Below, one piece after another: positions 1,012-5,818 of a DNA stretch of 64,000 nucleotides. Source of the DNA: Actinobacteria bacterium IMCC19121. Its GTDB lineage: Bacteria; Actinomycetota; Actinomycetes; Nanopelagicales; Nanopelagicaceae. The notes beneath the pieces are model-generated. The model was given only the letters and a program-made list of their open reading frames with translations, was not told the DNA's origin and did not search any database. A program made the position numbers and the translations under genes. The stretch is from the NCBI GenBank assembly GCA_002284895.1, contig CP015605.1:558001-622000 (forward strand), written 5' to 3'. Within the stretch, counting starts at the first letter, position 1; the number at the start of each line of letters is the position of its first letter.

Positions 1012-1662
1012 ATGACGCAGGGTTCACAGCTTCAACGCTTAGTTGAAGTTATGGACCAACTGCGATCTCCTGGGGGTTGTCCTTGGGATGCAGAACAAAC
1101 ACATGAGTCACTTCTTAAATATCTGTTAGAAGAGTCCTACGAGTTTGTTGATGCTGTAGCAGGTGGTGATCGCATTGATATGCGCGAAGAACTCGGTGAT
1201 GTATTACTGCAGGTCTATTTCCATGCTCGTATCGCCGAGGACCATCCAAGTGATCCATTTTCAATTGAAGATGTAGCTCAAGGCATCACTGATAAGTTAA
1301 TTAGACGCCATCCTCATGTCTTTGCTGGAGTTGAGGTAAAAACTTCAGAAGATGTATTGCAAAATTGGGAAGATATAAAAAAGAAAGAAAAGGGCCGCAC
1401 CTCAGCCCTTGATGGGATTGCAATGTCGCAGCCGGCCCTGCCTTTAGTAGAAAAGCTTTTATATCGCGCCGAAAAATACAACGTTGATCTTCACACCCCA
1501 ACCAGCGCAGATATTGATGGAGATGCCGATGAAGGCGCAGTAGGACAAGCATTGTTGGCCGTTATTGCTTGGGCCCATGCCAATGGAATTGATGCTGAGG
1601 CCGCCCTGCGCAAAGAAGCGTTGAAATTGAGCGAACAAGTGAGCACTATCGAGGCACGGTAG
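1012..1662 (+). CDS. mazG: Nucleoside triphosphate pyrophosphohydrolase MazG
   Basis: A 216-aa MazG-family house-cleaning enzyme that hydrolyses (d)NTPs to NMP and pyrophosphate. The N-terminal MazG fold shows the usual GCPWDAEQTHESL segment, the EESYEF metal-binding helix and the REELGDVLLQV second helix, with acidic residues that coordinate magnesium. A second, weaker MazG-like half follows (PALPLVEKLLYRAEK). It is shorter than the ~260-aa E. coli protein but close to the single-and-a-half-domain actinobacterial form. It lies 11 bases after the lipoprotein and upstream of eno, as in mycobacteria. Confidence 0.9.
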   Translation: MTQGSQLQRLVEVMDQLRSPGGCPWDAEQTHESLLKYLLEESYEFVDAVAGGDRIDMREELGDVLLQVYFHARIAEDHPSDPFSIEDVAQGITDKLIRRHPHVFAGVEVKTSEDVLQNWEDIKKKEKGRTSALDGIAMSQPALPLVEKLLYRAEKYNVDLHTPTSADIDGDADEGAVGQALLAVIAWAHANGIDAEAALRKEALKLSEQVSTIEAR

Positions 1663-1726
1663 GATTAGCCCAGAAAAGATTGTGCGATTTCAGCGTTGAG
1701 GTCTACGGCACAAGATGTGTAAGTGA

Positions 1727-3019
<1,293 letters not shown>

Positions 3020-3027
3020 GTGATTTT

Positions 3028-3426
3028 GTGGCGCGTCGACAATTAAATTTCAACCGTCGACGTAACTCGGGGCGTGCATTGGCGCTATGGGCAATATTTT
3101 TTATATTAGCTCTTGCCATTGCACCTCCCGTGAAGCACTACTTCACCCAGCGAGCACAAATAAGCGCACTTAATTCACAACTAGCCTCAGATAACAAAGC
3201 GCTAGATGCTGCGCGTCAAGAACTCTTGTTATGGCAAGATCCTGAATACATAAAGTCACAAGCGCGTGAGCGTTTGCACTTTGTATTACCCGGTGAGCGC
3301 CAATACATAGTCACAGAAAATGGAACTGCATCAAATACTGATGAGGGTACAAAAGTTGCCAACTCGCTCACTGATGGCCAACCGTGGTATTCAAGACTTA
3401 TCGCCTCCATCACAGAAGCGGGTTAA
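3028..3426 (+). CDS. Septum formation initiator FtsB/DivIC family protein
   Basis: A 132-aa bitopic membrane protein. A basic N-terminus (ARRQLNFNRRRNSGR) precedes one membrane segment at about residues 18-35, then a short coiled coil (ISALNSQLASDNKALDAARQ) and the family motif DPEYIKSQARERLHFVLPGE, with a disordered tail. FtsB/DivIC proteins join FtsL and FtsQ in the divisome. The start is GTG, 8 bases after eno. In Actinobacteria the gene after enolase is regularly this family member, followed by DUF501 and ppx, exactly as here. Confidence 0.87.
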   Translation: MARRQLNFNRRRNSGRALALWAIFFILALAIAPPVKHYFTQRAQISALNSQLASDNKALDAARQELLLWQDPEYIKSQARERLHFVLPGERQYIVTENGTASNTDEGTKVANSLTDGQPWYSRLIASITEAG

Positions 3427-3430
3427 TGCT

Positions 3431-3919
3431 TTGCGCGAAGTATCACAAGCAGATTTAGATTGCATCGAAATTCAATTAGGTCGCACACCTCGTGATGTTC
3501 ATGCAATTGCTTATCGCTGTCCATGTGGCAAGCCTGCAGTAGTTGAAACACCACCGCGCCTTGCCGATGGCACACCTTTCCCAACTTTCTATTACGCAAC
3601 CTGCCCGCGTTTAACTGCAGCAATTTCAACCCTTGAAACAACTGGCTTAATGGGTCAGATGAATGAGCGGTTAGAAACCGATGCAGAGTTAGCTGGGGCT
3701 TATCACGCAGCCCATGATGACTACATTGCAGCGCGATCAGCACTTGGCATTGATGTGCCTGAAGTAGACAACGTATCTGCTGGTGGAATGCCAAATCGCG
3801 TGAAATGCCTGCATTCACTTATTGCCCACTCACTTTCAGCCGGTCCAGATGTGAACCCATTAGGCGATGAAGCGCTAGCAAAACTGCCCAAGTGGTGGGA
3901 AGGCAATCCATGCGAGTAG
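3431..3919 (+). CDS. DUF501 family protein
   Basis: About 162 aa, matching the actinobacterial DUF501 family, whose function is unknown. The conserved opening (DLDCIEIQLGRTPRDVHAIA, then RCPCGKPAVVETPPRL) and the TPFPTFYYATCPRL block are present; the paired cysteines suggest metal binding, which is inference. I place the start at TTG 3431, because family members begin a few residues before the LGRTPR motif. An upstream ATG in frame at 3320 would run deep into the FtsB-like gene. The 3' end overlaps ppx by 10 bases, consistent with translational coupling. Confidence 0.8.
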   Translation: MREVSQADLDCIEIQLGRTPRDVHAIAYRCPCGKPAVVETPPRLADGTPFPTFYYATCPRLTAAISTLETTGLMGQMNERLETDAELAGAYHAAHDDYIAARSALGIDVPEVDNVSAGGMPNRVKCLHSLIAHSLSAGPDVNPLGDEALAKLPKWWEGNPCE

Positions 3920-4830
3920 CAGCCATTGATTGCGGCACTAACTCAATACGTTTACTGATTGCAGATATTGAGGGTGAGAGCTTTCGTGAAGTTCTGCGCA
4001 CAATGGAGATTGTTCGCTTAGGTCAAGGCGTTGATGAGACCGGGCAGTTCCACCCAGATGCAATCACTCGCACATTAGCCGCCGTTGATAAGTTTGCTGG
4101 AGAGATTGCAAAGCGCGGAGTAGAAAAGATACGTTTTTGTGCAACAAGTGCCACACGCGATGCAACTAATCGTCACCTATTTGTTGATGGAGTGCGCGAA
4201 CGCTTGGGGATTGAGCCTGAAGTAATTAGTGGGGATGAGGAAGCAGCACTTTCTTTTGCTGGAGCAATCCAAGATTTCCATCCATCTGATGGTCCTTTTC
4301 TTGTCGTTGATATTGGCGGCGGATCAACTGAGTTTGTCTTTGGCACCACAAGCGTTGAATCTGCAAAGTCGGTCAACATAGGTTGTGTGAGAATGACTGA
4401 GCGCCACTTTGCAAATGATCCTGCAGCACAAACACAAGTAGATGCAGCACGAGCCGACATTATTGAGGCGATTGCAAAGGCAGCCAGCATTGTTCCTATT
4501 ACAAAAGCCAAGACATTGATCGCAGTTGCTGGCACAGCAACCACTGTCGCAGCGGCTGCATTGAACTTATCTGAATATGATCGCTATGCAATTCACTTAT
4601 CTCGAATCAGTGCGCAGCAAGTGCATGAAGCTTCGCAGATGTTTTTAACTAAAACCCGAGAAGAACGCTTAACTCTTGGTTATATGCACCCTGGTCGTGT
4701 GGATGTGATTCCTGCAGGTGCATTAGTTCTTTCAGAGATCATGAGAGCAACTGGGGCAAGTGAATTCGTGGCATCTGAATCAGATATCTTGGATGGAATT
4801 GCCCGTTCATTAGCTGGAAAGAACGCTTAG
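3910..4830 (+). CDS. ppx: Exopolyphosphatase / GppA family phosphatase
   Basis: A 306-aa member of the Ppx/GppA branch of the ASKHA fold, hydrolysing polyphosphate or pppGpp. The phosphate-1 loop (AAIDCGTNSIRLLIADI) and phosphate-2 loop (VVDIGGGSTEF) are intact, as is the AGTATT motif near residue 210. It has the short two-domain actinobacterial form without the C-terminal HD-like extension of E. coli Ppx. ATG 3910 is preferred over an in-frame ATG at 3892 because MRVAAIDCGTNS is where the family begins. It ends 31 bases before a tRNA gene. Confidence 0.9.
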   Translation: MRVAAIDCGTNSIRLLIADIEGESFREVLRTMEIVRLGQGVDETGQFHPDAITRTLAAVDKFAGEIAKRGVEKIRFCATSATRDATNRHLFVDGVRERLGIEPEVISGDEEAALSFAGAIQDFHPSDGPFLVVDIGGGSTEFVFGTTSVESAKSVNIGCVRMTERHFANDPAAQTQVDAARADIIEAIAKAASIVPITKAKTLIAVAGTATTVAAAALNLSEYDRYAIHLSRISAQQVHEASQMFLTKTREERLTLGYMHPGRVDVIPAGALVLSEIMRATGASEFVASESDILDGIARSLAGKNA

Positions 4831-4861
4831 AAAAGCAGGGTAGATTTACCCCTTGCACGTG

Positions 4862-4937
4862 GCCCCGATAGCCCAATGGCAGAGGCAGAGGACTTAAAAT
4901 CCTCCCAGTGTGGGTTCGACCCCCACTCGGGGCACCA
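4862..4937 (+). tRNA. tRNA with UAA anticodon (Leu-type), class I fold
   Basis: Folding by eye gives acceptor GCCCCGA/TCGGGGC, a D arm with GGC at the 3' side and GG in the loop, anticodon stem GAGGA/TCCTC around loop CTTAAAA (anticodon TAA), a 5-base variable loop CCAGT, T stem GTGGG/CCCAC with loop TTCGACC, discriminator A and an encoded CCA. UAA reads leucine UUA codons. Every standard element is present, but the variable region is short, so this is a class I tRNA, whereas bacterial tRNA-Leu is normally class II with a long variable arm. The amino acid carried is therefore inferred from the anticodon and A73 only. Confidence 0.88.
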
Positions 4938-4990
4938 TCTTCACATCGCCCGGGAATCTTCTGGGCCTTAAACTTGTTATGCATGGCAAA

Positions 4991-5009
4991 CCACCAGAGG
5001 TTCTGGTGG
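4991..5009 (+). other. Perfect 8-bp hairpin between tRNA and yccA
   Basis: CCACCAGA (4991-4998) and TCTGGTGG (5002-5009) are perfectly complementary around a GGT loop. No T-run follows, so it is not a typical intrinsic terminator. It may act as a 3' processing boundary for the tRNA transcript or as a 5' stabiliser for the next mRNA; neither is shown. Confidence 0.45.
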
Positions 5010-5032
5010 CACTACAAAAGGAGAGAAAAGAT

Positions 5033-5818
5033 ATGCGCAGTTCAAACCCTGTTTTAGGACGGGCGTTTAATCAGCGTGGATACGCTGCATTTGATCCGAG
5101 CACAATTAACTCAGACCCAGCAGCGATGGAAGAACTTTATAACGCACCTGCTGCATCATCGATGCGCACAGGTCGCATGACGATTGACGATGTAGTCACT
5201 CGCACAGGAATTTTATTTGCAGTTCTAGTTTCTGTTGGCGCAGTTGCATGGACACTTAACCTTGGTGGCGGGGCAATGATGCTCGGTGTCTTTGGTGGTT
5301 TTGCACTTGCCATGGTCAACAGCTTTAGCAAAACCGTTAAGCCTGCGCTAGCAATTGCTTATGCAGCTTTTCAAGGTTTAGCTCTTGGAACAATTAGCAA
5401 CATATATAACTCTGCATATTCAGGAATTGTTAGCCAAGCAATCATCGTAACTATCTGTGCATTCACAGGAATGCTCTTTGCATATAAGAGCGGACGCATC
5501 CGTGTGACACCTAAGTTCACCAAGGTGCTCATGACTGCATTGATTGGTTACTTAGTACTGGCGCTGCTTTCCTTCGTTGGTTCATTCTTTGGCGCAAGCA
5601 TCTATAACATCGGTGGTCTTGGTTTAATCATGGCTGCAGGTGGAATGGTTCTTGCAAGCTTCTTCTTGATTCTAGATTTTGATCAGATTCAAAAGGGAAT
5701 CAATGCCGGAGCTCCAGAATCAGAATCATGGCGAGCTGCTTTTGGTTTGATGGTCACAATCGTGTGGCTATATCTAGAAGTTCTGCGTCTGCTTTCAATC
5801 TTGCGCGGCAACGACTAA
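5033..5818 (+). CDS. Bax inhibitor-1 / YccA family membrane protein
   Basis: A 261-aa integral membrane protein with about seven hydrophobic segments after a ~50-aa soluble N-terminus (MRSSNPVLGRAF). It matches the actinobacterial Bax1-I/YccA branch: a TIDDVVTRTGILFAVL start to the first helix, and FDQIQKGINAGAPESESW before the last. Family members have been studied as pH-sensitive calcium leak channels; the role here is inferred. AAAGGAG about 10 bases upstream supports the ATG at 5033. A longer reading from 4910 would run through the tRNA and is rejected. The stop abuts the stop of the convergent MFS gene. Confidence 0.85.
   Translation: MRSSNPVLGRAFNQRGYAAFDPSTINSDPAAMEELYNAPAASSMRTGRMTIDDVVTRTGILFAVLVSVGAVAWTLNLGGGAMMLGVFGGFALAMVNSFSKTVKPALAIAYAAFQGLALGTISNIYNSAYSGIVSQAIIVTICAFTGMLFAYKSGRIRVTPKFTKVLMTALIGYLVLALLSFVGSFFGASIYNIGGLGLIMAAGGMVLASFFLILDFDQIQKGINAGAPESESWRAAFGLMVTIVWLYLEVLRLLSILRGND

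Follow-up and report, generated by a model that had tools for sequence, protein, structure and literature searches.

A class I tRNA-Leu(UAA) gene and the decoding of UUA in Actinomycetota

The long variable arm is given, in the part of a 2023 review that treats it, as a feature of tRNA-Leu everywhere except in animal mitochondria. The arm is not required for leucine identity in Escherichia coli, which is set by A73, A15-U48, G18G19 and A20a, and C2-G71 serves in the same organism as an antideterminant against SerRS (both from the relevant section of PMC9976931). The excerpt available of PMC4932002 gives a single UUA tRNA for each of six Streptomyces genomes. The nearest published case of a short-armed form, in the portion of PMC6582537 that describes it, is one cluster-borne short-loop tRNA-Leu(UAG) in two Mycobacterium species. 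In the accessible part of PMC11541572, tRNA-Leu-2, -3 and -5 of M. tuberculosis have a long variable loop, which fits the other leucine tRNAs of that species being short, although this is our own reading of the source. A search of the open-access literature turned up no paper in which a class I tRNA-Leu is a regular member of a bacterial tRNA set, and the sections seen of PMC8629427, PMC8450103, PMC7609411, PMC4033280 and PMC4810241 do not mention one. Class I tRNA-Leu may be known to database curators.

The gene described here lies in a 64,000-nucleotide stretch, called the window throughout (positions 558001-622000), of a one-contig actinobacterial genome of 1,506,415 bases that is 99.95% complete. 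Judging by close loci, among them those of Candidatus Planktophila and IMCC26103, the organism is a freshwater actinobacterium of the Nanopelagicales type. It is very probably the ordinary, sole UUA-decoding tRNA-Leu of its genome in class I form, a reading that takes in both its charging and the switching of classes at its locus. A class I sole UUA reader contradicts the long-arm rule as worded in that part of the 2023 review.

The tRNA gene and its leucine identity

At 4862-4937 lies the gene for a well-formed class I tRNA that has anticodon UAA and A73 (Table 1). It is called as tRNA-Leu(taa) on the plus strand by ARAGORN, and it belongs to the Rfam tRNA family RF00005, for which it scores 58.9 bits (E 3.5e-10) where the gathering score is 29. 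The acceptor stem has 7 bp, the D stem 3 bp and a C13.A22 mismatch, and the anticodon and T stems 5 bp each; the anticodon loop reads CUUAAAA. When folded freely, the sequence surpasses its dinucleotide shuffles in stability (z = -2.99, with 1 of 200 as good), although the minimum-energy fold is an imperfect cloverleaf. The long variable arm of class II tRNA-Leu (~10 nt or more) is missing, its place being taken by a loop of 5 nt, and the core has A9 with C12-G23 rather than the class II G9 with G12-C23. An allo-tRNA of the 8/4 or 9/3 kind is ruled out by the 7-bp acceptor and the 5-bp T stem. The coordinates, loop size, anticodon and A73 given in the initial annotation proved exact by ARAGORN, RF00005 and the arm parse, and the arm parse also confirmed its central observation of a class I shape with a leucine anticodon and A73.

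Table 1. Features of the window at and around the tRNA gene. The gene names eno, ftsB-like, DUF501-like, ppx and bax are used as labels.
Feature	Position	Strand	Basis
Gene for class I tRNA-Leu(UAA), CCA encoded	4862..4937	+	ARAGORN; RF00005 58.9 bits; arm parse
Anticodon UAA (positions 34-36)	4895..4897	+	ARAGORN; sequence
Variable loop CCAGU, 5 nt (44-48), U48 last, replacing the long class II arm	4905..4909	+	Arm parse
Discriminator A73	4934..4934	+	Arm parse
ppx (Ppx/GppA-type phosphatase), immediately upstream of the tRNA and conserved as its neighbour	3892..4830	+	ORF; tblastn synteny
eno, ftsB-like and DUF501-like genes, conserved upstream block	1742..3919	+	ORFs; synteny
bax (Bax-inhibitor-1-like membrane protein), conserved downstream neighbour	5033..5818	+	ORF (ATG 5033 taken as start); synteny

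The window tRNA keeps A73, A14, A15-U48, G18G19, A20a and C2-G71, and its anticodon is of the leucine type NAR. The combination of A14-A15, U48, the 13.22 mismatch and A73 is present in all four Leu-anticodon tRNAs of the genome and in none of the other 34, whereas A15-U48 alone is not leucine-specific there, since it is also found in Trp, Arg-ACG, Ala-UGC, Gly-UCC and others. One LeuRS scores above the family cut-off in the genome, and it is the enzyme that most likely charges the window tRNA, judging from these sequence features. The enzyme would read A73 together with the hinge of the tRNA (A14, A15-U48, G18G19 and A20a, with the 3-bp D stem and the 13.22 mismatch). Since recognition of this kind needs no arm, the arm would be free to be lost. 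C2-G71 and A73 would help to exclude SerRS, and the arm-less tRNA would go on decoding UUA as usual.

Two classes of tRNA-Leu(UAA), their locus and their origin

The initial annotation took class I leucine-anticodon tRNAs in actinomycetes to be rare. They are common: in a sample of 246 genomes of the class, one or more class I Leu matches occur in 185 and one or more class II Leu matches in 245, the anticodons among the class I matches listed including UAA, CAA, UAG and some CAG. In the source family, Nanopelagicaceae, the class I UAA pattern has matches in 56 of 61 genomes, and for at least one of these, G042 (sole match at L049), the match is due to chance. The gene is present in at least 117 stretches, which among the matches listed come from Mycobacterium, Mycolicibacter, Mycolicibacterium, Nocardia, Gordonia, Corynebacterium, Williamsia, Millisia, Rhodococcus, Kocuria, Nanopelagicaceae, one Rubrobacteraceae MAG and two Planctomycetota MAGs. 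Several MAGs titled Bifidobacterium breve (among L204, L220, L224, L258, L268 and L301) have Nanopelagicales-like genes at the locus, so that the titles are probably wrong, and L250 is titled Rhodococcus and filed by taxonomy under Gloeocapsa. In E. coli, no match to the window tRNA was found in 20,395 records at E 0.01. Class I tRNAs with anticodon UAG occur in families f82 and f99 (e.g., G366:C143:21154 and G423:C71:90859), which gives short-arm Leu tRNAs for the CUN box too.

Across 296 genomes of Actinomycetota there were 68 class I UAA matches, of which 58 were kept, 9 were set aside as chance and 1 (G244) was treated apart as a split gene; the class II UAA pattern was matched in 115. No genome has both kinds intact, compared with 22.5 expected if relatedness is ignored; because the patterns miss many genes, with 123 of the 296 genomes matching neither, this exclusion is measured only on the genes found. 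The discarded matches (G120, G240, G326, G256, G279, G128, G185, G345 and G225) were judged by their matched letters, three of them also by ARAGORN (L075, a Cys tRNA, and L076 and L077, no tRNA) and the remaining six from the letters alone. G141 was kept as class I despite an ARAGORN anticodon shift to aaa (L082), and G223 was kept although the contig end cuts its gene (L135). A further pattern search gave 58 matches, mostly chance-like, and only the clear tRNA-like ones were used. All 18 genomes reached via class I loci have class II Leu tRNAs (GAG, CAG, UAG or CAA), and none of the 18 has a class II UAA match.

Outside Actinomycetota, the class I Leu pattern occurs in 32 of 199 sampled genomes of Planctomycetota, some with three genes in ~1 kb or less. 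A Phycisphaeraceae genome has class II readers with UAG, GAG, CAG and CAA, no class II UAA match and a class I UAA gene, a set that makes contamination a less likely cause of the Planctomycetota matches. In G646:C199, G653:C78 and G728:C89 (Planctomycetota) and in L326, two to three class I Leu tRNAs with differing anticodons lie within ~1 kb; those of L326 sit inside a long tRNA array.

The class I gene follows eno-ftsB-DUF501-ppx directly at many Nanopelagicales loci and at loci of Corynebacterium, Rhodococcus and Millisia, and in Nocardia and Kocuria the block is ~2-5 kb away; at the Mycobacterium loci no such block was seen within the stretches examined. Synteny by tblastn supports the earlier suggestion that the position following ppx is a locus common to other actinobacteria as well. 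Class II UAA genes also directly follow DUF501-ppx (L111-L114 and L101), lie in a stretch with ppx, ndh and bax (the Streptomyces-like genome G083) or adjoin ndh and bax (G264); for those of families f10, f48, f39 and f30, and one of f17, no probed neighbour was close by. In position, the window tRNA corresponds to class II tRNA-Leu(UAA) genes, of which Streptomyces bldA is an example. Since both kinds occupy the same eno-ftsB-DUF501-ppx-bax neighbourhood in different lineages, the class of this tRNA appears to have switched repeatedly in Actinomycetota; we infer the direction and the number of the switches.

One family shows both kinds at one spot. In Rubrobacteraceae (f19), the position after DUF501/ftsB holds a class I gene in G136 and a class II gene in G125, G287, G297 and G319; the acceptor and T arms of the two are identical and the anticodon arms nearly so, the differences lying at position 9, in the D stem and in the variable region. 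With classes cut at a variable loop of 6 nt and only loci below L326 compared, unique class I UAA genes have C12-G23 in 65 of 65 and A9 in 62 (the other three have G9), and 4 of the 65 parse without U48. Unique class II UAA genes have G12-C23 and G9 in 37 of 37, from a search pattern that forced a pyrimidine at position 23 and left positions 9 and 12 free. As the two classes differ at 9 and 12-23 besides the arm, a switch would rebuild the tertiary core too.

A LeuRS tree of 29 of 30 genomes (G070, with no LeuRS match, was dropped) needs at least 10 class-label changes on its 29 rows, 8 of them forced by well-supported branches; shuffled labels need no more (mean 8.5), and because class I/class II pairs were picked from the same families on purpose, the count shows only a lack of agreement between the class label and LeuRS. 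Across the class sampled, LeuRS is of two quite different types, which do not track the class of tRNA-Leu(UAA). In L115 (G000:C1:1325443-1327923), leuS directly follows tRNA-Ala(GGC).

How one class can replace the other at a locus may be seen in the Rubrobacteraceae contig set apart above (L309, G244:C290:1-9000). Within 1603-5607, a class I tRNA-Leu(UAA) is split in its anticodon loop: the 5' half lies at 5607-5573 on the minus strand, just after DUF501, and the 3' half, ~3.9 kb away, starts from 1643. Within the insert lie a gene for an HNH endonuclease (PF01844, 25.8 bits; cut-off 21.4) and, at 5054-5137, a class II tRNA-Leu(UAA) that is complete; the HNH frame runs into this tRNA and stops at its UAA anticodon. 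A comparable layout is seen in phage T5, in which HNH genes overlap tRNA genes; the tRNA-Leu(UAG) of T5 is class II. This one contig of one genome, in which misassembly is possible, can be read as the result of a cassette that interrupted the class I gene at the site and brought a class II gene with it. The class would then have been exchanged at least once via an inserted tRNA-bearing cassette. When halves of class I genes were sought at 19 class II loci, only this one was positive.

Class I Leu tRNAs are also found outside chromosomes. At E 0.01, 90 of 50,697 phage records match the window tRNA, and so do 5 of 72,556 plasmid records; the phage matches are not exclusively leucine (one is annotated as tRNA-Lys). 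Each of twelve places, chosen for variety from the 45 listed, holds a Leu-anticodon tRNA whose variable loop has 5 or 6 nt; they include class I Leu tRNAs from phages of seven host genera: Pseudomonas, Acinetobacter, Prochlorococcus, Salmonella, Erwinia, Rhodococcus and Streptomyces. Phages on hosts with an ordinary LeuRS carry such tRNAs, which suggests that common LeuRS enzymes may accept them. At least 120 stretches match in IMG/VR. In Acinetobacter phage vB_AciJM_313 (L338), class I Leu tRNAs with UAA and UAG are neighbours in one phage tRNA array. In plasmid 5 of Tsukamurella tyrosinosolvens (L345), a class I tRNA-Leu(CAA) adjoins a site-specific integrase gene and is a likely attachment site.

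These phage and plasmid copies, the one beside an integrase included, together with the chromosomal gene split by a cassette carrying an HNH gene and a class II tRNA, are what could be expected if a mobile class I Leu tRNA family had travelled with phages, plasmids, tRNA arrays or endonuclease cassettes and had become domesticated as the UUA or UUG reader in several lineages. This account is possible but on balance doubtful: the chromosomal locus is conserved in several actinobacterial groups, the G244 snapshot runs from class I to class II, and phages may have taken the gene from their hosts. One could consider a wider proposal, which is tentative and held with rather less than even confidence. 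In much of Actinomycetota and in a part of Planctomycetota, an unrecognised, partly mobile family of class I Leu tRNAs, present in phages, plasmids, arrays and chromosomes, would have displaced class II as the sole reader of UUA, often of UUG and sometimes of UAG-read codons. Endonuclease cassettes that carry a tRNA, and that split the tRNA already in place in its anticodon loop, would have aided the exchange at one locus; the pressure behind it may have come from toxins that target tRNAs or from anticodon nucleases.

It is unlikely that the class I form goes back to a different class I tRNA whose anticodon changed, rather than to a class II tRNA-Leu. Its core (A9, C12-G23 and C13) is unlike that of class II tRNA-Leu, and both origins are left standing by the tRNA tree of 116 rows, whose 65 columns are too few to decide on a single origin of class I Leu and in which 6-nt loops (e.g., L347) were filed as class II. 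Against an anticodon change, the D arm of the tRNA is of the leucine kind (a stem of 3 bp, the 13.22 mismatch and GGNA with A20a), A15-U48 is present, and the identical acceptor and T arms and near-identical anticodon arms at the Rubrobacteraceae locus tie the two classes together.

UUA decoding in the source genome

The tRNA inventory of the whole genome comprises 38 Rfam tRNA loci, each parsed with ARAGORN. The leucine set among them consists of UAA and CAA in class I form and GAG and UAG in class II form, and Rfam and ARAGORN found no second UUA reader among the 38. When the Rfam search was loosened to E 10, it gave only two extra 15-bit matches, neither a leucine tRNA, and a class II pattern for all Leu anticodons returned two genes, the known GAG and UAG ones. 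UUA is a common codon in the window, as the initial annotation had noted (295 of 13,848 codons in 28 ORFs). With a sole UUA reader and no class II UAA gene, UUA decoding depends on the window class I gene. For UUG, the only CAA-anticodon tRNA in the genome is also class I (G000:C1:967188-967260, L017:189-262, variable loop ACAGU). A second tRNA-Val(UAC) at G000:C1:813860 (L016:361-435), with an unpaired D stem, T73 and 41.6 bits, stands alongside a normal tRNA-Val(UAC) and is odd or decaying.

The initial annotation had expected a normal class II tRNA-Leu(UAA) elsewhere in the genome and had considered the window tRNA extra, specialised or mischarged. The class I shape is unexpected for leucine, and some planctomycete genomes and phages do have class I Leu tRNAs in arrays with other tRNAs. 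Even so, a regulatory, suppressor-like or degenerate class I tRNA beside a normal class II one is very improbable and is rejected for the source genome as assembled: the inventory above holds no such partner, the tRNA retains the leucine identity set, UUA codons of leuS stand opposite leucine in the LeuRS alignment, and none of the 173 typed genomes has both intact kinds. It had also been allowed that the tRNA would simply be the standard one if no other UUA reader existed and LeuRS charged it efficiently; the genomic half of this is what was found, and the charging half is the prediction made above.

The meaning of the codons was read from an alignment of the organism's leuS with those of 10 genomes using class II UAA tRNAs. 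Leucine fills 56% of 180 cells in the UUA columns (18 codons), 70% of 80 cells in the UUG columns (8 codons) and 49% of 410 cells in the CUN columns (41 codons). As UUA and UUG columns are Leu as often as CUN columns, UUA and UUG are, by this comparison, leucine in the source organism. A class I body could in principle suit other synthetases, but the charging of the window tRNA by one of them, with UUA (and UUG) reassigned or ambiguous, is scarcely credible and is rejected on this alignment and on the leucine identity set.

Significance and comparison with known systems

Whole bacterial groups, mycobacteria and corynebacteria included, have a sole UUA reader without the textbook long arm. They offer natural tests of how LeuRS and SerRS discriminate tRNAs and of how a tRNA changes its structural class with its amino acid kept. 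The tRNA-targeting toxins and drugs studied in mycobacteria meet a leucine tRNA set of unexpected shapes, and in annotation, class-based isotype checks can misjudge class I Leu tRNA genes. In Streptomyces, development is regulated through the UUA tRNA (bldA), and a comparable neighbourhood carries the other class in related lineages.

Among tRNAs of mobile or accessory character, the tRNA-Leu(UAG) of the Mycobacterium tRNA cluster likewise has a short variable loop, with an HNH endonuclease gene in the cluster; as described in the relevant part of PMC6582537, it is an extra isoacceptor beside the normal one, whereas the window tRNA is the only reader of its codon. The class I tRNA-Leu genes of phages (ZC03, P-RSM6, vB_AciJM_313, Trina, Genie2, SunLIRen, SB18 and GiJojo) have the same architecture of D arm and short loop with Leu anticodons, but they are phage-borne and accessory to the host set, unlike the window tRNA.

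Other tRNAs without the arm are more distant. In the section of PMC9976931 that treats them, animal mitochondrial tRNA-Leu(UUR) likewise lacks a long arm and is leucylated mainly via A73 and A14, and E. coli tRNA-Leu without variable and anticodon arms is described there as active with LeuRS. The mitochondrial tRNA is organellar with a floppy fold, whereas the window tRNA is bacterial and GC-rich with the bacterial hinge set, and the arm-less E. coli tRNAs are laboratory constructs, whereas the window tRNA is natural and fixed. The archaeal and eukaryal class I tRNA-Tyr is, in the same section, a type II tRNA whose arm was lost in some domains; it concerns tyrosine and one or two deep losses, whereas class I tRNA-Leu shows patchy switching inside one phylum.

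The closest relative remains the class II tRNA-Leu(UAA) such as Streptomyces bldA, which shares with the window tRNA the anticodon, A73, A14, A15-U48, the 3-bp D stem, the role of sole UUA reader and, in sampled genomes, the neighbourhood of ppx, bax and ndh. The two differ in that the class II form has a variable arm of 13-19 nt, G9 and G12-C23, whereas the window tRNA has 5 nt, A9 and C12-G23.
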